This document shows, piece by piece, positions 728-18,464 of a stretch of DNA of 29,339 nucleotides. Each line of letters starts with the position of its first letter. Position 1 is the first letter of the stretch. Location: IMG/VR virus record IMGVR_UViG_3300007345_000177, positions 1 to 29,339 of that record; one strand, given 5' to 3'. This DNA comes from a virus. Under the pieces are notes generated by a model. That model saw nothing but the letters and a program-made list of their open reading frames with translations, was not told the origin of the DNA and did not search any database. The position numbers and the translations under genes are program-made.

Positions 728-3700
728 ATGGCTACTAAGAAAAAAGTTTTAAAATCTTTAAAGAAACCTAGAAGAAAATTTCATAAAGGTTTTCATAATC
801 AAGAAGCAAGTGAAGGTACAGGAAGACCATCTGAGTGGATACCTCATAATCCTAATACAAGAAATCATTCACAAGGAACTTCACAAGAAAGTAAAAAAAT
901 TCCTGGTGCTGGTTCAGCAAGTAAAACAAGTGGATCAGGTGGGGGTGCGCCAGCAAGTGCAGGTTCAGCAAGTACAGTAGCTACAACAACTACAGAAGGT
1001 ACAGCAAGTGGATCAGATTCTACAAATACTTCAGATAATCCAGATTTGGATATGTTGTATAATGATGGTCAAGCTTCAACAGGTGATAACGCAGGAGGTT
1101 CATCAAGTTCCTCAAGTTCATCAAGTTCATCAAGTTCATCAGATCCATCAGGCGGAGGCACTACATTGAATGAGAAAGGTCAAAGATTAACACGTACAGC
1201 TACTAGGGCTGAACAAATAGCTAAAGGAGATCTTAGTGCTTTTGATGATCCTGAAACAGGAGAATCTAATATAAAGATAGCTGCCCCTAAAAAAGTAGGT
1301 GTAGATGCAGAAGGAAAACCTTTAAGTACTTTAGAAACTGCTGATGATGATGTAACAACAATAGCTACACAAACTGATGCACTAGCAGGTACAGCAACTA
1401 CTCCTACAGATGTGACTGCTTCAAAAGGAACTGTTAGCCAAGTTACAACAGATGATTCTGCGATTGATGCTGCTGCAAAAGTTACTGCACAAAAAGTAGG
1501 TGATTTAGATGCTACAAAAGCTGCTACAGGTGATGATCCTGATAAAGCTACTGTAGATGAAAAAACTTCATTAACTGAAAAAGCTACAGCAGCTACAGCA
1601 CCTACTGATGCAGAAATTACAAAAGCTAAAGGAACAGCAGCTACATTTGATGAGCAAGCAGCCACAGCAGTAGCAGCAACTGATGCAACAGCAGCTACAG
1701 TAGATGATACTGTTACTGGCCCTACAGCTACTACAAGAACAGCACAGCAAATTGAAGATGATGCTTTAACAGGTATTATAACTAATCAACAAACAGATGT
1801 TACAAAATTACCTACTTATGCAAAAGCATCTTCTCGTACAGCACAAACACAAGAAGCTGCTAGTAGAATAGCTGCTGAATTAGGGACTGCACCTTCTGTA
1901 GATTTAAAAGGTCGTGAAGCTATTACAGGTAGTGTATCTCAAGGAGATGCAGCACAAATTGGTGGTGTGCCTACTTTAGCTGCTTCATCAAGACAAGCTG
2001 TTACAGGCACAGCACGTACTACAGCAGCAGCAGATATGGCTTCTGTTGTTGCAGATCTTCCTCCAGAAATTACAGCAGCAGTTGCTGAAGATCCTGCGGT
2101 AATGACTGCACAAATAGATACAGGTGCAGATCCTAAAGTAGTAGGAGCAGTGGCAGCTTTACCTCAAGAAGCTTTAGTATCTGTTCAAATGGAACAGTTA
2201 TTGGCTGGTATGGAGTCAGGAGAAACTCCTACATGGGCTAGACCAGCAGTTGCAGCTATAGAGCAACAGATGGCTCAGAGGGGCCTAGAAGTGTCCACAG
2301 TAGGCCGTGATGCTTTATTTAATGCAATCATACAGAGTGCTTTACCAATCGCTCAGAGCAACGCACAGGCCCTTCAGCAACGCGCACAGCAGAATCTAAG
2401 TAATGAGCAACAAGCTAATTTGGCTACTGCTCAAAATACTATGCAATTGCGTATGCAGAATCTTGCTAACCAACAGACAGCAGCATCTCAAACTGCTCAA
2501 ATGGCACAGCAGATTAAAGTACAACAAGGTCAGTTTAGACAAGAAGCTGTAATAACTTCTGCACAACAAAGACAACAAACAGCCCAGGCTAATCTTCAAG
2601 CTGCTCAACAACAAGCATCTCAAGAATCTAGTCAACGTCAACAAGTTGCATTAGCTAACTTAGATGCAGGTAGTCGTTTAGATTTAGCAAACTTACAAGC
2701 TTTAAATGCAGCAGGTTCTGAAAACCTTTCAGTAGAGCAGCAAGCAAGACTTGCAGATTATAATGCAAAAGTTAATAGGACTATGCGTCAAGCTGAACTC
2801 CAACAAGATATGGAGAAAGCTAATCTTTCTACAGAATTACAAGTAGAACTTACTAATTTAACAAATCAAAATGCAGCAGCTAGAGATACTATGACTGCTG
2901 AAAATCAAGAGCGTTTAACTAATCTTAACGTGCTTGTAGACTTTAAAAAGACTAATGCAAATCTAGCACAGCAAATGGATTTAGCTAATTTAAATGCAGA
3001 TCAACAAATGCGTTTAGCTATTTTATCTGAAAAAGCAGCAGCAGACAGTGCTAATTTTACAGCAGATAATCAGTTTGAGCTACAGAGACTTACTACACTT
3101 ACAAATGTTATGTCTCAAAATACTGAGCTTAGACAACGTGCAGAACTCGCACAATTAAGTGCGAATGAAAAAGTAGAATTAGCTAATCTTGCTGCAAAGA
3201 ATCAAGCTGATTCAGAAAGCATGAATGCTCAAAATGTAGCTGACTTACAAAGATTTGAAAAGAAAATGCAAGCTGCTCAAGTAAATGCTCAATTAGCTCA
3301 ACAAATGGGATTAGCTAATTTAAGCAATGAGCAACAAGCTGCAATGTTTAATGCTCAAACTCAAGCTAATATAGATATTACTAAGTTTAATGCAGATCAA
3401 CAGATGGCATTAGCTAATTCTAAATTTATGCAAACTGTTACATTACAAGATTTTAGTAATGAACAACAAGCAGCTATGCAGAATGCTACAGCAATGGCTA
3501 ACTTAGATATGGCTACTGTAGATCAAAGAACTAAATTAGCAATTACAAATGCTCAAAACTTTTTACAAATGGATTTAGCTAATTTAAATAATGAACAACA
3601 AGCTGTAGTTTTAGATCAACAGTTAGAGCAGCAAAGAATGTTATCTGATGCTGCCGCAGCAAATGCTGCTCAACAATTTAATGCTAAATCTGAAAATGAA

Positions 3701-4231
3701 ATAAATCAATTTAATGCTAATTTAGCTGCTGCTCAAAAACAATTTAATGCTTCACAGTCTAATGCAATGGCGCAGTTTAATGCTAATCAAGAGAATATGC
3801 AGAAAGCTAAAAATGCAGATAGGTCAGCAGATGTAGCTAAATTTAATGCGGGTTTAGAAACAGATATTAATAAGTTTAATTCAACTACACAACTTCAACG
3901 TGATACTTGGAATGCTCAAAATGCAGCAGCAGTAGAAGCATCTAATGTTGCTTGGAGACGTAGAGCTAATGAATTAGACACTACAACTGAAAATGCAATT
4001 AATATGCAAAACAGTATGAATGCTTTTAATATGAGTTCACAAGCAAATGCTTTTTTATGGCAAGAAATGCGTGATCAAGCTGACTTTGATTTTAAAGCAT
4101 ATGAAGGTGATCAAGCTAGACGAGCAGCTATTGTTGTTGCTGCCCTTGGTCAAGATAGTGATGCTTATGATGAAAGGTTATGGATTGAAAAATTAGGTGA
4201 AGCAATAAATCAAGGATTAGGATCTTTGTAA
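728..4231 (+). CDS. Large Ala/Gln/Asn-rich repeat-containing virion protein (putative internal or structural protein)
   Basis: 1167 aa. The N-terminus is strongly basic (MATKKKVLKSLKKPRRK), followed by a Ser/Gly/Thr linker with a poly-Ser run at about residues 125-140 and a Thr/Ala-rich low-complexity section to about 490. A distinct block at about 495-555 contains G-E-T-P-T-W-A-R-P-A-V and A-L-F-N-A-I-I-Q-S-A-L-P-I-A-Q; I remember similar blocks in marine phage structural proteins. Residues 560-1060 are coiled-coil-like, with recurring units of the form L-A-N-L-[SN]-x-[ED]-Q-Q and Q-F-N-A. The end (about 1065-1167) is more globular. It is the first of five consecutive large genes between fibre and endolysin, so a virion protein, perhaps internal or ejected, is inferred. 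Specific function unknown. Confidence 0.7.
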   Translation: MATKKKVLKSLKKPRRKFHKGFHNQEASEGTGRPSEWIPHNPNTRNHSQGTSQESKKIPGAGSASKTSGSGGGAPASAGSASTVATTTTEGTASGSDSTNTSDNPDLDMLYNDGQASTGDNAGGSSSSSSSSSSSSSSDPSGGGTTLNEKGQRLTRTATRAEQIAKGDLSAFDDPETGESNIKIAAPKKVGVDAEGKPLSTLETADDDVTTIATQTDALAGTATTPTDVTASKGTVSQVTTDDSAIDAAAKVTAQKVGDLDATKAATGDDPDKATVDEKTSLTEKATAATAPTDAEITKAKGTAATFDEQAATAVAATDATAATVDDTVTGPTATTRTAQQIEDDALTGIITNQQTDVTKLPTYAKASSRTAQTQEAASRIAAELGTAPSVDLKGREAITGSVSQGDAAQIGGVPTLAASSRQAVTGTARTTAAADMASVVADLPPEITAAVAEDPAVMTAQIDTGADPKVVGAVAALPQEALVSVQMEQLLAGMESGETPTWARPAVAAIEQQMAQRGLEVSTVGRDALFNAIIQSALPIAQSNAQALQQRAQQNLSNEQQANLATAQNTMQLRMQNLANQQTAASQTAQMAQQIKVQQGQFRQEAVITSAQQRQQTAQANLQAAQQQASQESSQRQQVALANLDAGSRLDLANLQALNAAGSENLSVEQQARLADYNAKVNRTMRQAELQQDMEKANLSTELQVELTNLTNQNAAARDTMTAENQERLTNLNVLVDFKKTNANLAQQMDLANLNADQQMRLAILSEKAAADSANFTADNQFELQRLTTLTNVMSQNTELRQRAELAQLSANEKVELANLAAKNQADSESMNAQNVADLQRFEKKMQAAQVNAQLAQQMGLANLSNEQQAAMFNAQTQANIDITKFNADQQMALANSKFMQTVTLQDFSNEQQAAMQNATAMANLDMATVDQRTKLAITNAQNFLQMDLANLNNEQQAVVLDQQLEQQRMLSDAAAANAAQQFNAKSENEINQFNANLAAAQKQFNASQSNAMAQFNANQENMQKAKNADRSADVAKFNAGLETDINKFNSTTQLQRDTWNAQNAAAVEASNVAWRRRANELDTTTENAINMQNSMNAFNMSSQANAFLWQEMRDQADFDFKAYEGDQARRAAIVVAALGQDSDAYDERLWIEKLGEAINQGLGSL
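1099..1140 (+). repeat. 9-bp tandem repeat encoding a poly-Ser linker
   Basis: The unit TTCATCAAG is repeated: copies at 1099-1107, 1108-1116 (one mismatch, TTCCTCAAG), 1117-1125 and 1126-1134, with a partial copy to 1140. It lies in frame inside the 1167-aa virion gene and encodes part of an uninterrupted Ser stretch. A 9-bp period keeps the reading frame, so copy number can change without breaking the protein. A flexible linker is the simplest role. Confidence 0.9.
2975..3609 (+). repeat. Degenerate internal coding repeats (LANL-x-x-QQ units)
   Basis: Near-copies of one segment recur within the 1167-aa gene. ATGGATTTAGCTAATTTAAA starts at 2975, a diverged copy at 3305 (ATGGGATTAGCTAATTTAAG) and another at 3569. 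Each encodes M-[DG]-L-A-N-L-[NS] and is followed by an [ED]-Q-Q element (N-A-D-Q-Q, S-N-E-Q-Q, N-N-E-Q-Q). Shorter related units lie outside this span, from about 2396 to 3800. This looks like growth of a helical rod by internal duplication and drift. Confidence 0.75.
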
Positions 4232-15363: not shown

Positions 15364-15418
15364 TGTTTAGATATTTTTTTTTGCGTTAATACCTTTATTG
15401 GCTTTATTAGGAATACAT

Positions 15419-15787
15419 ATGTACAAATATTTTACAGACAAAGAACTAGAATGCAAGCACTGTGAGTCAGAAGGCATTGACCCTGCATTTATGCAAAAGG
15501 TTGATAAGCTAAGAGGTGAGTTAGGTTTTGCTTTTCCTATTACTTCTGCCTACCGTTGTCCTGACCACCCTATAGAAGCTCGTAAAAACGCTCCTGGCGC
15601 TCATGCATCAGGAAGGGCTGTAGATATAGCGGTAAGAGGAGAACAAGCTCACAAGCTCTTACAGGCAGCTTTAAACGCAGGTTTCACAGGAATAGGTGTA
15701 AGCCAAAAAGGTGGAGTACGTTTTATACATCTAGATGATTTACCAAATTCTAAAGAACGTCCTAGACCGCACGTATGGAGTTACTAA
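15419..15787 (+). CDS. Peptidase M15-family endolysin (D-Ala-D-Ala carboxypeptidase / L-Ala-D-Glu endopeptidase type)
   Basis: 122 aa. It carries the M15 zinc signature H-x-x-G-x-A-x-D (H62-A-S-G-R-A-V-D69) preceded by I-T-S-A-Y-R-C-P, and a second metal/catalytic block F-I-H-L-D (H104, D106), then R-P-H-V-W-S-Y at the end, where H118 may contribute. The enzyme cuts peptide cross-links of peptidoglycan; there is no signal peptide, so a holin would release it. ATG 15419 is preferred because AGGA (15409-15412) sits 6 nt upstream; an in-frame TTG at 15398 would add seven residues without support. The stop overlaps the next ATG (TAATG). It opens the lysis cassette. Confidence 0.88.
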   Translation: MYKYFTDKELECKHCESEGIDPAFMQKVDKLRGELGFAFPITSAYRCPDHPIEARKNAPGAHASGRAVDIAVRGEQAHKLLQAALNAGFTGIGVSQKGGVRFIHLDDLPNSKERPRPHVWSY

Positions 15788-15963
15788 TGATTTTATACAG
15801 TGAAGATATGCTTGGTAAGGTTTACAGGCTTTACCAACTACACCAAGCAAAACACAACTTAGGCTTTATGCAATACGAAGACTTTCGTGTTTTATTTGAA
15901 GAACAACAACAAACTATTTTAGATCAAATAGAGGAAGAAGTTAATGGCGATTCCAGTGCTTGA
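15787..15963 (+). CDS. Small 58-aa helical protein in the lysis cassette
   Basis: Starts at the ATG sharing one base with the endolysin stop; an upstream in-frame ATG at 15775 lies inside the endolysin gene. The product (MILYSEDMLGKVYRLYQLHQ...) is helical, aromatic/Gln-rich in the middle and acidic at the end (DQIEEEVNGD), with no membrane segment or known motif. Its last 20 bases overlap the start of the holin candidate, whose ribosome binding site (GAGGAAG) lies inside this gene. A lysis-accessory or coupling role is possible but unsupported by motifs. Confidence 0.65.
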   Translation: MILYSEDMLGKVYRLYQLHQAKHNLGFMQYEDFRVLFEEQQQTILDQIEEEVNGDSSA

Positions 15964-16309
15964 TGGTCTTGTAAAATTAGGAGGGACTTGGCTAGAAGGT
16001 AAAGTAGCTAAGACTAAAGCTAAAGCAGAAGCAGAAGCTACTGTAATGGTAAAGCAAGCTGAGTCTGCTGCTGATTGGGAAACTGCTATGGCTAGAGCAT
16101 CCAATCAGTCCTGGAAAGATGAGTGGCTTACACTTTTATTTAGTGTGCCTCTTATACTCTGTTTCTTTCCTGCTACTGTGCAATATGTACAAGCAGGATT
16201 TGAAGCTTTAGAAGCTATGCCAGATTGGTATCAGTACAGTTTATCTGTAATTATTGCTGCATCGTTTGGCGTTAGATCTGTAATGGGAATAATGAATAAA
16301 AGGAAATAA
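15944..16309 (+). CDS. Holin candidate with two TM segments
   Basis: 121 aa. Residues 1-55 are a cytoplasmic-type amphipathic helix rich in Lys, Ala and Glu (KAKAEAEATVMVKQAE). W-K-D-E-W then leads into TM1 at about 62-80 (LTLLFSVPLILCFFPA); a short loop with M-P-D-W-Y-Q-Y follows, then TM2 at about 98-116 (YSLSVIIAASFGVRSVMGI) and a basic tail. Proteins with S-W-K-D-E-W and A-A-S-F-G-V-R near the end are, as I remember, commonly annotated as phage holins or transmembrane proteins. Position right after the endolysin strengthens the call: it would make the pore that lets the M15 peptidase reach the wall. GAGGAAG precedes the ATG. Confidence 0.7.
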   Translation: MAIPVLDGLVKLGGTWLEGKVAKTKAKAEAEATVMVKQAESAADWETAMARASNQSWKDEWLTLLFSVPLILCFFPATVQYVQAGFEALEAMPDWYQYSLSVIIAASFGVRSVMGIMNKRK

Positions 16310-16311
16310 CT

Positions 16312-16611
16312 ATGAGTGATGGAACTATTAAGATACCTCAATGGGGACTACCTATAGCAGCAGCGGCTGTAAGCTTAGCAGTTGCTTGGGGCGTACTACA
16401 AGCTAATACTGCACATGCTTCAGAAGATCGTGAGCGTATTGCAGCTATAGCGGAGGAAGCTGCAAAAAAGGCACAGGAGAACGGTCAAGCACAGGCAGTA
16501 ACGAGCGCCAAAGTGGAGGCCATCGTGTCGAGCTTGGAGCGACAGGAAAAAATTCAAGAGAAAACAAACGAACAGATCGCCGCACTGGTTCAAGCTCTCT
16601 TAGCCAAATAG
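16312..16611 (+). CDS. TM plus coiled-coil protein, i-spanin-like; carries a possible -1 frameshift site
   Basis: 99 aa. A single hydrophobic segment at about 12-30 (GLPIAAAAVSLAVAWGVLQ) follows a short N-terminus, and residues 35-99 form a continuous charged coiled coil (ERIAAIAEEAAKKAQE ... TNEQIAALVQALLAK). N-terminal anchor plus long periplasmic coiled coil right after endolysin and holin is the usual layout of an inner-membrane spanin (Rz-like), though no sequence motif proves it and no overlapping Rz1 lipoprotein is seen. AGGAA precedes the ATG. Codons 51-53 read GCA AAA AAG, creating the slippery heptamer A AAA AAG with GGAGG upstream; the -1 frame there is open to 16886. GC content rises after about 16480 compared with neighbours. 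Confidence 0.65.
   Translation: MSDGTIKIPQWGLPIAAAAVSLAVAWGVLQANTAHASEDRERIAAIAEEAAKKAQENGQAQAVTSAKVEAIVSSLERQEKIQEKTNEQIAALVQALLAK
16452..16470 (+). promoter_or_regulatory. Candidate programmed -1 ribosomal frameshift site (SD-like GGAGG + A AAA AAG)
   Basis: GGAGG (16452-16456) is followed after 7 nt by the heptamer A AAA AAG (16464-16470), phased X XXY YYZ relative to the 99-aa gene. The E. coli dnaX frameshift uses the same heptamer with an upstream Shine-Dalgarno-like stimulator. The -1 frame is open from 16434 through the site to the stop at 16884-16886. I see no strong stem-loop immediately downstream; the only one noted is a 5-bp TGTCG/CGACA pair about 55 nt away. The codons also simply encode E-E-A-A-K-K, so chance is possible. 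Confidence 0.4.
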
Positions 16612-16634
16612 ACTATGACCCAGAAAACCCAAAC

Positions 16635-16886
16635 TTGTTCTGCGACATGCGAGAATACAGGATGCTACGCTACGTGCAGCCACCATCGTACCGCCACGAA
16701 GTCGCAAGAAAGTGGCTGTTGTACAACAAAGGACAATGTGGATACGGAGCAGAAGTGTATGTGCGTAACCAAGGCCCAAGAGTACTTGGAACAGCGTGGG
16801 ACATTAAGTTAGTACTTCTTACTTGGGACTTGCGTAAACCTACTGCTGTTAAAACAGAGGCTGTTAAAAAGAAAAGGAGACTGTAG
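16635..16886 (+). CDS. Orphan-start ORF, possibly the -1 frameshift extension of the upstream coiled-coil protein
   Basis: The conserved-looking part reads D-Y-D-P-E-N-P-N-L-F-C-D-M-R-E-Y-R-M-L then a compact region with G-Q-C-G-Y-G-A-E-V-Y-V-R and L-G-T-A-W-D-I-K-L-V-L and a basic tail (KKKRRL). It has several Trp/Tyr/Gly and a protein-like composition, but no credible start: TTG 16635 and ATG 16650 lack a ribosome binding site, and protein-like sequence extends upstream of both. The frame is open from 16434 with no ATG, GTG or TTG before 16635. A -1 shift at 16464-16470 would give a 191-aa fusion with an N-terminal TM. The stop overlaps the next gene's GTG by one base. I recognise no family. 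An assembly indel is an alternative. Confidence 0.55.
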   Translation: MFCDMREYRMLRYVQPPSYRHEVARKWLLYNKGQCGYGAEVYVRNQGPRVLGTAWDIKLVLLTWDLRKPTAVKTEAVKKKRRL

Positions 16887-17116
16887 TGGAAGCTATACCT
16901 CCTTTTCCTAACAGTGTAAATGCACATGACTATGTAGTATTAGATAAAGTACGTGACATACGCTCCATGAAGTATCAAACCCTTACAGGTAAAGATGATG
17001 TACAAGCTGTTAACCAGTATGAGCAACTTTACTACGAGTATAGAAACGGGCAAGTTATGGTAACTATACTGAAAATAAAAAGTCAGTTAAAATACACGGT
17101 AGATATAAAAGCATGA
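16886..17116 (+). CDS. Small hypothetical protein (76 aa), GTG start
   Basis: GTG at 16886 shares a base with the upstream TAG, and GGAG (16876-16879) sits 6 nt before it, so the GTG is well supported. The product starts MEAIPPFPNSVNAHDY and continues as a mixed alpha/beta polar protein (DVQAVNQYEQLYYEYRNGQ) with a hydrophobic strand near the end. I recognise no domain. It belongs to the tightly packed run of small genes after the lysis cassette; its TGA overlaps the next ATG (ATGA). Confidence 0.65.
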   Translation: MEAIPPFPNSVNAHDYVVLDKVRDIRSMKYQTLTGKDDVQAVNQYEQLYYEYRNGQVMVTILKIKSQLKYTVDIKA

Positions 17117-17361
17117 CTATGATGATCTTTGTCCTTATCATACTAGAAAGAGGACAAATTACAGGAGAAGAATTTTATTTTAGAGAATTAACTTCTTGTT
17201 TAGAATATTCTGCTGCCTTAAATAGTCAATCAGTTGCAGATAATAATGCTTTATTAAGTAACAATAATTATTTTAAAACTTATTGTAGGGTTCGTCAGAT
17301 CAATGTATCTGATGCAGGAAGTAAAATACTATTTAGAGATCCAGCAAAGAAAGAGGACTAA
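17113..17361 (+). CDS. Small hypothetical protein (82 aa) with hydrophobic N-terminus
   Basis: Starts in an ATGA overlap with the previous stop; a second in-frame ATG at 17119 is an alternative. Residues 1-11 are hydrophobic (MTMMIFVLIIL), followed by E-R-G-Q and a polar body with two cysteines (LTSCLEY and TYCRV) that could pair if exported. The hydrophobic stretch is short for a signal peptide but could be one or an anchor. No recognised family. It ends one base before the ATG of a Lys-rich protein. Confidence 0.6.
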   Translation: MTMMIFVLIILERGQITGEEFYFRELTSCLEYSAALNSQSVADNNALLSNNNYFKTYCRVRQINVSDAGSKILFRDPAKKED

Positions 17362-17362
17362 T

Positions 17363-17551
17363 ATGGCTGCTAAAAAGAAAACTAAATCTAGAGTTAATGA
17401 GGCTGGTAACTACACCAAGCCTACCATGCGTAAGCGTTTATTTAACAAGATTAAAGCAGGAACAAAGGGCGGTAAAGCTGGTCAGTGGTCGGCGCGTAAA
17501 GCCCAGATGCTTGCTAAGCAATACAAAGCCGCAGGTGGTGGGTATAAGTAA
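17363..17551 (+). CDS. Small basic protein (62 aa), conserved-looking in marine phages
   Basis: ATG 17363 is chosen over an earlier in-frame ATG at 17303 because GAGGA lies just upstream and the protein-like sequence begins there. The product starts MAAKKKTKSRVNEAGNYTKP and contains M-R-K-R-L-F-N-K-I-K, A-G-T-K-G-G-K-A-G-Q-W-S-A-R-K-A-Q and ends K-A-A-G-G-G-Y-K. It is strongly basic. I remember near-identical short proteins (N-Y-T-K-P ... G-Q-W-S-A-R-K-A) across marine phages, with no assigned function. First of five consecutive small basic proteins. The stop overlaps the next ATG (TAATG). Confidence 0.75.
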   Translation: MAAKKKTKSRVNEAGNYTKPTMRKRLFNKIKAGTKGGKAGQWSARKAQMLAKQYKAAGGGYK

Positions 17552-17853
17552 TGGCTGATCCTAAAAAAGGAACAGGCAAAAAGCCTAAAGGCAGCGGTAG
17601 ACGTTTATACACAGATGAGAATCCTAAAGATACTGTAAGTATTAAATATGCTACTGTTCAAGATGCCAGAGATACTGCTCGTAAAGTAAAAGGAATTAAC
17701 AAACCTTATGCTCGTAAGATACAAATACTTACTGTAATGGAGCAGCGAGCTAAGGTAGCTGGCAAGTCTAAACAAGCAGAGATAGCTAAGAAAGCTAAAG
17801 AATCTCTTAGGAAAAAGCATGGCAAAACAAACCCATCAAAAAACAAGAAGTAA
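17551..17853 (+). CDS. Basic protein (100 aa) with G-S-G-R-R-L-Y-T-D-E-N-P motif
   Basis: The N-terminus is Lys/Gly-rich, followed at about residues 14-31 by G-S-G-R-R-L-Y-T-D-E-N-P-K-D-T-V-S, then V-Q-D-A-R-D-T-A-R-K-V, Y-A-R-K-I-Q-I-L-T-V-M-E-Q-R-A and a Lys-rich tail. The R-R-L-Y-T-D-E-N-P-K-D-T-V string, followed by a helix and an A-R-x-x-Q-I repeat, matches an uncharacterised conserved protein type I associate with marine and large viruses; no biochemical role is known to me. Its 3' end overlaps a 29-aa ORF. The charge suggests nucleic-acid contact, but that is inference. Confidence 0.75.
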   Translation: MADPKKGTGKKPKGSGRRLYTDENPKDTVSIKYATVQDARDTARKVKGINKPYARKIQILTVMEQRAKVAGKSKQAEIAKKAKESLRKKHGKTNPSKNKK

Positions 17854-17908
17854 AAAAGAACTTGAAGAGTGGATTAAACAACAACAAGACAAGAGGCACG
17901 ATCAGTAA
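17819..17908 (+). CDS. Very small (29 aa) charged ORF
   Basis: The 29 codons encode MAKQTHQKTRSKKELEEWIK and then QQQDKRHDQ. AGGA (17809-17812) is 6 nt upstream of the ATG, and the stop overlaps the next gene's ATG as TAATG, the same coupling seen elsewhere on this strand. It overlaps the previous gene by 35 nt. Its helical K/E/Q composition resembles its neighbours. It may be a real microprotein or a leader that carries ribosomes to the next gene; size limits confidence. Confidence 0.45.
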   Translation: MAKQTHQKTRSKKELEEWIKQQQDKRHDQ

Positions 17909-18153
17909 TGGCACTTAAAAAATCTCAAAAGTCTTTAAAGTCTTGGACAAAACAGAAGTGGCGTACTAAGTCTGGTAAGAAGTCTAGTGAAACAGGTGAG
18001 CGTTATCTGCCTGAAAAAGCTATAAAAGCTTTATCATCTTCTGAATATGCTGCTACTACTAAAAAGAAACGTGAAGATACTAAGAAGGGTAAACAACATA
18101 GCAAACAACCTAAGAAGATTGCAAAGAAGACAAGGAGCTATAGAAAGAAATGA
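17908..18153 (+). CDS. Lys-rich basic protein (81 aa), conserved-looking
   Basis: Starts MALKKSQKSLKSWTKQKWRT, then S-G-K-K-S-S-E-T-G-E-R-Y-L-P-E-K-A-I-K-A-L-S-S-S-E-Y-A-A-T-T-K-K-K, ending in a Lys/Arg-rich tail. I remember the S-W-T-K-Q-K-W-R-T-K-S-G-K and E-R-Y-L-P block in many uncharacterised proteins of marine phages and larger viruses. No catalytic residues are apparent; extreme positive charge and lack of hydrophobic core outside the Y-L-P segment suggest a nucleic-acid- or virion-associated protein. The ATG comes from a TAATG overlap, and its TGA overlaps the next ATG (ATGA). Confidence 0.75.
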   Translation: MALKKSQKSLKSWTKQKWRTKSGKKSSETGERYLPEKAIKALSSSEYAATTKKKREDTKKGKQHSKQPKKIAKKTRSYRKK

Positions 18154-18464
18154 GAGAAGAATATAAAAAAGGAAGTAAAGCTAAAAAGAAAGATCCTAGA
18201 TTAGCCAGGGCTGGAGTGTCTGGATATAACAAACCCAAACGAACTCCTAAGCACCCTACTAAATCCCATGTTGTTGTAGCTAAAGATGGTGATAAAATTA
18301 AAACCATACGCTTTGGACAACAAGGTGTCCGTGGTGCTGGTAAAAATCCTACATCTAAAAAAGACAAAGCTCGTAAAAAATCATATTATGCTAGACATAA
18401 TGCACAAGACTCTAATCCCTCAAAACTTTCAGCCCGATACTGGTCACACAAAGTTAAATGGTAA
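18150..18464 (+). CDS. Basic protein (104 aa) with R-F-G-Q-Q-G and A-R-Y-W-S-x-K-V-K-W motifs
   Basis: Residues 1-40 are Lys/Arg-rich. A beta-like segment follows (S-H-V-V-V-A-K-D-G-D-K-I-K-T-I-R-F-G-Q-Q-G-V), then K-D-K-A-R-K-K-S-Y-Y-A-R-H-N and the C-terminal S-K-L-S-A-R-Y-W-S-H-K-V-K-W. The order K-T-I-R-F-G-Q-Q-G, R-K-S, R-H, S-A-x-Y-W-x-x-K-V-K-W is a recurring signature of small uncharacterised viral proteins as I remember them. It is the last member of the basic-protein cluster and starts in an ATGA overlap with its neighbour, so the group is probably co-translated. Function unknown. Confidence 0.75.
   Translation: MREEYKKGSKAKKKDPRLARAGVSGYNKPKRTPKHPTKSHVVVAKDGDKIKTIRFGQQGVRGAGKNPTSKKDKARKKSYYARHNAQDSNPSKLSARYWSHKVKW

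Follow-up and report, generated by a model that had tools for sequence, protein, structure and literature searches.

The DNA analysed here (the window) comprises 29,339 nt, positions 1 to 29,339 of IMG/VR virus record IMGVR_UViG_3300007345_000177. It contains a small gene for a 99-residue protein (designated P99) overlapped in the -1 phase by a long reading frame that appears to encode protein and has no start codon of its own. How could this second frame be translated? We assign a probability of roughly 0.92 to programmed -1 ribosomal frameshifting in P99, a small lysis-region gene; slippage and its rate are inferred, as no measurement is available. What the sequences establish is the structure of the frames, selection acting on both products and a conserved slippery motif with its stimulators.

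Features of the locus are listed in Table 1. The M15 endolysin, the 121-residue membrane protein, P99, the start-less domain and two small genes are clustered together; the 121-residue protein is holin-like by architecture only. An earlier note, made from the letters of the window alone, had proposed a frameshift fusion at this position, and its account of P99, GGAGG, the heptamer, the -1 frame and the GTG of the next gene was correct base by base. The frame is open from 16434 to a TAG at 16884-16886, which shares one base with GTG 16886. Its first ATG, GTG or TTG is the TTG at 16635, as had been claimed, and the only earlier candidate is the weak codon ATA at 16608. Annotation pipelines will either miss the domain or assign a false start at 16635 or 16647. 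The arithmetic of the proposed fusion also holds (53 + 138 = 191 residues, beside the 99-residue product), although this remains a prediction without measurement of frameshifting. Elsewhere in the window, a 1167-residue ORF (728-4231) with a long serine run and Q/N/A-rich repeats is apparently a virion or fibre-type protein, and consecutive short Lys-rich basic ORFs occupy 17303-18464.

Table 1. Features of the lysis region of the window, with the basis for each assignment
Feature	Position	Strand	Basis or remark
Endolysin (peptidase M15)	15398..15787	+	Pfam PF08291, E 4.6e-13; phrog_894 endolysin, E 1.1e-28; upstream, marks lysis region
121-aa small membrane protein, two hydrophobic segments	15944..16309	+	phrog_2524, E 1.4e-35, function unknown; hydropathy
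P99, 99-aa 0-frame product: N-terminal TM or signal segment, coiled-coil-like tail	16312..16611	+	ORF, hydropathy
SD-like GGAGG, 7 nt before heptamer	16452..16456	+	Sequence; codon fixation in relatives
Slippery heptamer A AAA AAG, X_XXY_YYZ phase, P99 codons 52-53	16464..16470	+	Sequence
-1 reading frame after slip, 138 codons then TAG	16470..16886	+	No ATG/GTG/TTG before 16635
P99-overlapping part of -1 frame, hydrophilic linker	16470..16607	+	Open, without residue constraint
Start-less C-terminal domain, four helices, invariant Cys12 and Cys44	16608..16883	+	Relatives, model
Next gene (76 aa), GTG overlapping -1-frame TAG	16886..17116	+	Sequence, ORF
82-aa gene	17113..17361	+	Similar-looking gene directly after P99 in domain-less relatives (by eye)

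An initial query with the domain identified 47 IMG/VR loci; a domain alignment and a second subfamily added many more, and P99 had a set of its own. After pooling, the domain was found in the -1 frame of a P99 homolog at 198 viral loci with a readable upstream stop, representing 119 distinct sequences from many metagenomes. The phages carrying this layout are uncultured marine tailed phages.

Over the last 42 codons of P99, the -1 frame was stop-free in all 117 testable sequences, and the same frame contained 3-9 stops in 15 P99 relatives without the domain. From the codon usage of the window's genome, a mean of 3.8 stops would be expected over these codons, with a probability of 0.0005 that none occurs; under a stricter synonymous shuffle within the gene, P was 0.018 in the window, and its median over the sequences was 0.048. 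The within-gene values are only modest for any single sequence, and the relatives are not independent. Start codons were likewise absent: all 49 listed sequences lacked ATG, GTG and TTG in the -1 frame of the overlap downstream of the heptamer, and two of them (L067 and L092) had none even 60 nt beyond the overlap. In many of the 49, a conserved YDPxxP-x-LFCD block precedes the first possible start, and thus a normal start cannot make this block.

In 106 of the 119 sequences, the interval from the upstream -1 stop to the P99 stop contained exactly one in-phase slippery heptamer. It belonged to either the A AAA AAR type (42 sequences; A AAA AAG in 27 and A AAA AAA in 15) or the G GGA AAR type (64 sequences; G GGA AAA in 40 and G GGA AAG in 24). 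Synonymous shuffling produced an in-phase heptamer in 17% of cases, against 89% observed among relatives. Codon choice at the motif was fixed: ACG GGA occurred in 64/64 sequences of the second type (elsewhere in the gene, ACG accounts for 14% of Thr and GGA for 29% of Gly), and nnA AAA in 42/42 of the first, with AAA for the first Lys in every one though it encodes 44% of Lys elsewhere in the gene. A Shine-Dalgarno (SD)-like match of 4 or more nt was found upstream of the heptamer in 39 of 42 and 62 of 64 sequences, respectively (101/106 overall; background 31%). In the A AAA AAR set, the codons of this element were GCG in 38/42 and GAG in 39/42, and GCG accounts for 11% of Ala elsewhere in the gene. 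A AAA AAA was also in phase in a few domain-less relatives, because Lys-Lys is conserved there. In E. coli, G_GGA_AAG and A_AAA_AAG are among the most efficient slippery heptamers and A_AAG is the best tetramer (PMC4066793).

The 13 sequences without a heptamer included 12 that read GCG GCA AAG, in which both the heptamer and the SD-like element have been lost and an in-phase A_AAG is retained. All 12 have a stem of 9-10 bp (GGCCAACGGG/CTCGTTGGCT) starting 5-6 nt after AAG, and the spacing used for stimulatory hairpins was 4-10 nt from the slippery motif (PMC4066793). Among six members of this group that were tested by synonymous shuffling, P values for the stem ranged from 0 of 400 to 0.05. 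The thirteenth sequence, L132, has only a possible A_AAG tetramer further upstream. No downstream stem was detectable in the window (shuffle P 0.54), and RNAalifold over subfamilies 1 and 2 revealed no convincing common stem, stems being found only in subsets. Three sequence features of a programmed -1 frameshift of the bacterial X_XXZ_ZZN type, namely a phased conserved motif, an open start-less downstream coding region and a stimulator, are all present. The frameshift reading of the earlier note is supported by relatives, in which heptamer, phase, SD-like element and open -1 frame are all kept. Parsimony requires a minimum of 8 changes of motif type on the domain tree and of 5 on the tree of the P99 5' region; recombination may be behind some of these changes. 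The family is a natural experiment: three slippery motifs and two kinds of stimulator have replaced each other under a constant frame relation.

The rival that survives best, although we regard it as improbable, is that the domain is a separate gene translated by coupled re-initiation at a non-standard start (ATA, GTA, TTA or similar) near the P99 stop. In the window ATA 16608 does overlap the TAG of P99, ATA is found there in many relatives, and the domain is its own gene in far relatives. However, the residue at this position varies among I, V and L, with no single codon kept. Re-initiation also leaves unexplained why stops are absent from the -1 frame as far back as the heptamer in every testable sequence, why synonymous codons are fixed in two unrelated heptamers, and why the heptamer-less clade has a stem. 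Still less credible is a fusion made by slippage of RNA polymerase rather than the ribosome. A6G and A7 runs can cause transcriptional slippage, and an A run is present in the window, but the 64 G GGA AAR and 12 A_AAG sequences contain no long homopolymer, and the ribosome is implicated by the SD-like elements and by a stem with ribosome-type spacing.

Selection was compared between frames, a dN/dS-type check that the earlier note had suggested. Purifying selection acts on frame 0 of P99 as far as the stop codon (pN/pS 0.15-0.19 in subfamily 1 and 0.10-0.17 in subfamily 2); after the stop it is the -1 frame, encoding the domain, that is so constrained (0.22 and 0.11, respectively, with other frames above 1). 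Within the overlap, the -1 frame had pN/pS values of 2.7 and 2.0 and a control frame 1.4 and 1.9, indicating that its residues are unconstrained and that it is only kept open. About 11% of the residues in its translation are hydrophobic. Being open but unconstrained, the overlap would encode a hydrophilic linker of no fixed sequence. The -1 translation had been described as protein-like; this is true from about 16611 onwards (Y-D-P...), and does not extend to the residues between the heptamer and the P99 stop. A frame-0 Cys-rich ORF at 16615-16812 (65 aa) looks like a gene and was considered as the real one but rejected, as every relative tested had at least one stop in this frame; it is a shadow of the -1 frame.

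The only relative found in cellular genome assemblies was a 44.8-kb contig of 112x coverage (L233, JAAXIF010000071.1) that was binned in a Sphingobacteriales MAG and is probably a misbinned phage genome. It differs from the window by 27 mismatches in 575 nt, with no indel and an identical heptamer, so independent assemblies answer the concern about a missing or extra base. An indel introduced by sequencing or assembly, or a gene fusion in decay, could look like this in one window on its own, but is refuted by 119 distinct sequences from many metagenomes, by this independent contig and by purifying selection, which acts on frame 0 ahead of the P99 stop and on the -1 frame beyond it.

What, then, would frameshifting produce? 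The two products share their first 53 residues, containing one hydrophobic segment (about residues 11-31) followed by AHA (an AxA motif); this segment could either anchor the protein or serve as a cleavable signal. The short product is a TM/coiled-coil-like protein, and the long predicted product combines the TM segment, the hydrophilic linker and a four-helix domain, in which Cys12 and Cys44 are invariant in 43 diverse members. The domain had no match in Pfam, PHROGs or PDB sequences. In MW202825 and in three IMG/VR contigs, a far homolog is encoded by a gene of its own, which starts with GTG and specifies a signal-like N-terminus; a holin-like gene lies beside it, as does a lysozyme gene in MW202825. 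By profile comparison this homolog is linked to the domain (probability 96.8, E 2.8e-10), and both Cys and the WL, N and LGTA positions are shared. A separate gene with its own start was the finding that the earlier note considered fatal to a frameshift. Such a gene occurs only in far relatives, next to a different neighbor gene, and frameshifting at this locus is not refuted by it. AlphaFold2 modelled the far homolog confidently as helical, with four helices following the signal segment (mean pLDDT 88); the model of the window domain was weaker (69) but had a matching helix order. Searches of the domain fold against PDB with Foldseek/VIA found no clear match, the best (Z 6.5) being a designed helical protein, and in BFVD three uncharacterised phage proteins of 90-103 aa were retrieved with probability 1.0 but E values of 0.08-0.6. 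Since the distant homologs are separate lysis-region genes with a signal sequence of their own, the domain probably works in the periplasm, an inference from sequence alone. The frameshift would thereby supply an export segment to a domain that elsewhere owns its signal sequence.

We propose that a ribosome translating P99 would reach A AAA AAG while its anti-SD can pair with GGAGG just upstream, and that a fraction of ribosomes would slip back one base and read 138 further codons. Two products with a common N-terminus would result, the 99-residue form with a coiled-coil tail and the 191-residue form with the linker and the four-helix, two-cysteine domain. The common N-terminus may carry the domain into the periplasm, and its two Cys could pair there. 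The relative amounts of the two forms may also matter, perhaps by modulating holin-controlled lysis; all of these steps are inferred. A role in lysis timing is guesswork based on gene position, export and the two Cys, without a direct test. More specifically, and only tentatively, the locus may encode a frameshift-made lysis regulator, in which the ratio of short to frameshifted product sets timing as a translational switch of the antiholin type, and lineages swap A AAA AAR with SD, G GGA AAR with SD and A_AAG with stem while the outcome is kept.

Regarding the origin of this arrangement, a gene like that at 17113 directly follows P99 in domain-less relatives, and for this reason the domain and the 76-residue gene (16608-17116) appear to have been inserted between P99 and the gene at 17113. 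Ten whole records of relatives without the domain behind P99 did not contain it elsewhere either, but this search is weak, having had no positive control. Three sequences (L101, L105 and L067) carried a subfamily-2-like domain (REW...NPP) behind a subfamily-1 P99, which suggests recombination near the overlap with the frame relation kept. When P99 and the domain were compared by tblastn with 50,697 phage records, no match was detected except one far homolog (with subfamily-2-like queries), and at this sensitivity neither was found in isolated phages in GenBank. Weak hits in Pseudomonas phages UF_RH6 and Ep020 appeared unrelated on reading. Positions 17346-17551 match HMO-2011-type phages at the DNA level with about 68-82% identity. 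HMO-2011 is one of the named phages with a short DNA match to the window, and some of its genes resemble, by eye, the gene at 17113 and that of the 121-residue protein; the part of HMO-2011 that was read showed neither P99 nor the domain.

Frameshifting as an event is well known; its use for a TM or secreted lysis-region protein was not found described in the open-access literature. Phage -1 frameshifts in one review and one phage frameshift survey concern tail chaperones and capsid and tail proteins. The earlier note knew of no such case in a lysis cassette, and our search for frameshifts associated with an antiholin, a spanin, a holin or HMO-2011 likewise found none, within open-access sources only. 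A two-component spanin (Rz/Rz1) does not fit: the -1 frame has no start of its own or visible lipobox, and P99 matched an Rz profile only at E 0.089. With the T4 antiholin RI, a small exported periplasmic lysis-region protein (PMC8385771), there is at most a possible functional likeness; the models are helical and the homologs have a signal-like N-terminus, but neither sequence nor fold searches gave a match. Unlike the domain, RI is encoded separately and carries a signal peptide, and holin binding by the present products would be hypothetical. The optional C-terminal domain recalls the Ig-like frameshifted extensions of phage capsid and tail proteins (A2, T3, PSA; PMC5009743); here, however, the domain is all-helical and, as far as can be told, not part of a virion protein.

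The window's signal, A AAA AAG with an upstream SD-like element, resembles those of E. coli dnaX and IS911/IS3-type elements. The SD spacing in dnaX is about 10 nt. In the window it is 7 nt and no stem was detectable in its clade, so the label dnaX-like, used in the earlier note, is apt for the heptamer and SD-like element and not for these other properties; moreover, the gene is different and belongs to a phage rather than a transposon or a polymerase. The A_AAG subset with its downstream stem resembles the tetramer arrangement of the IS3 family (PMC4066793). In the tail-assembly chaperone G/GT of lambda, too, a -1 shift lets one phage gene yield a short protein and an extended version of it. 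Its slippery sequence is GGGAAAG, which belongs to the G GGA AAR type seen in subfamily 2. P99 does not fit the pattern of a lambda-type tail chaperone, a soluble protein encoded between major tail and tape measure genes: it adjoins an endolysin and has an N-terminal hydrophobic segment. Unlike G/GT, the present system combines an N-terminal TM or signal segment and lysis-gene neighbors with a two-Cys helical extension whose homologs are exported.
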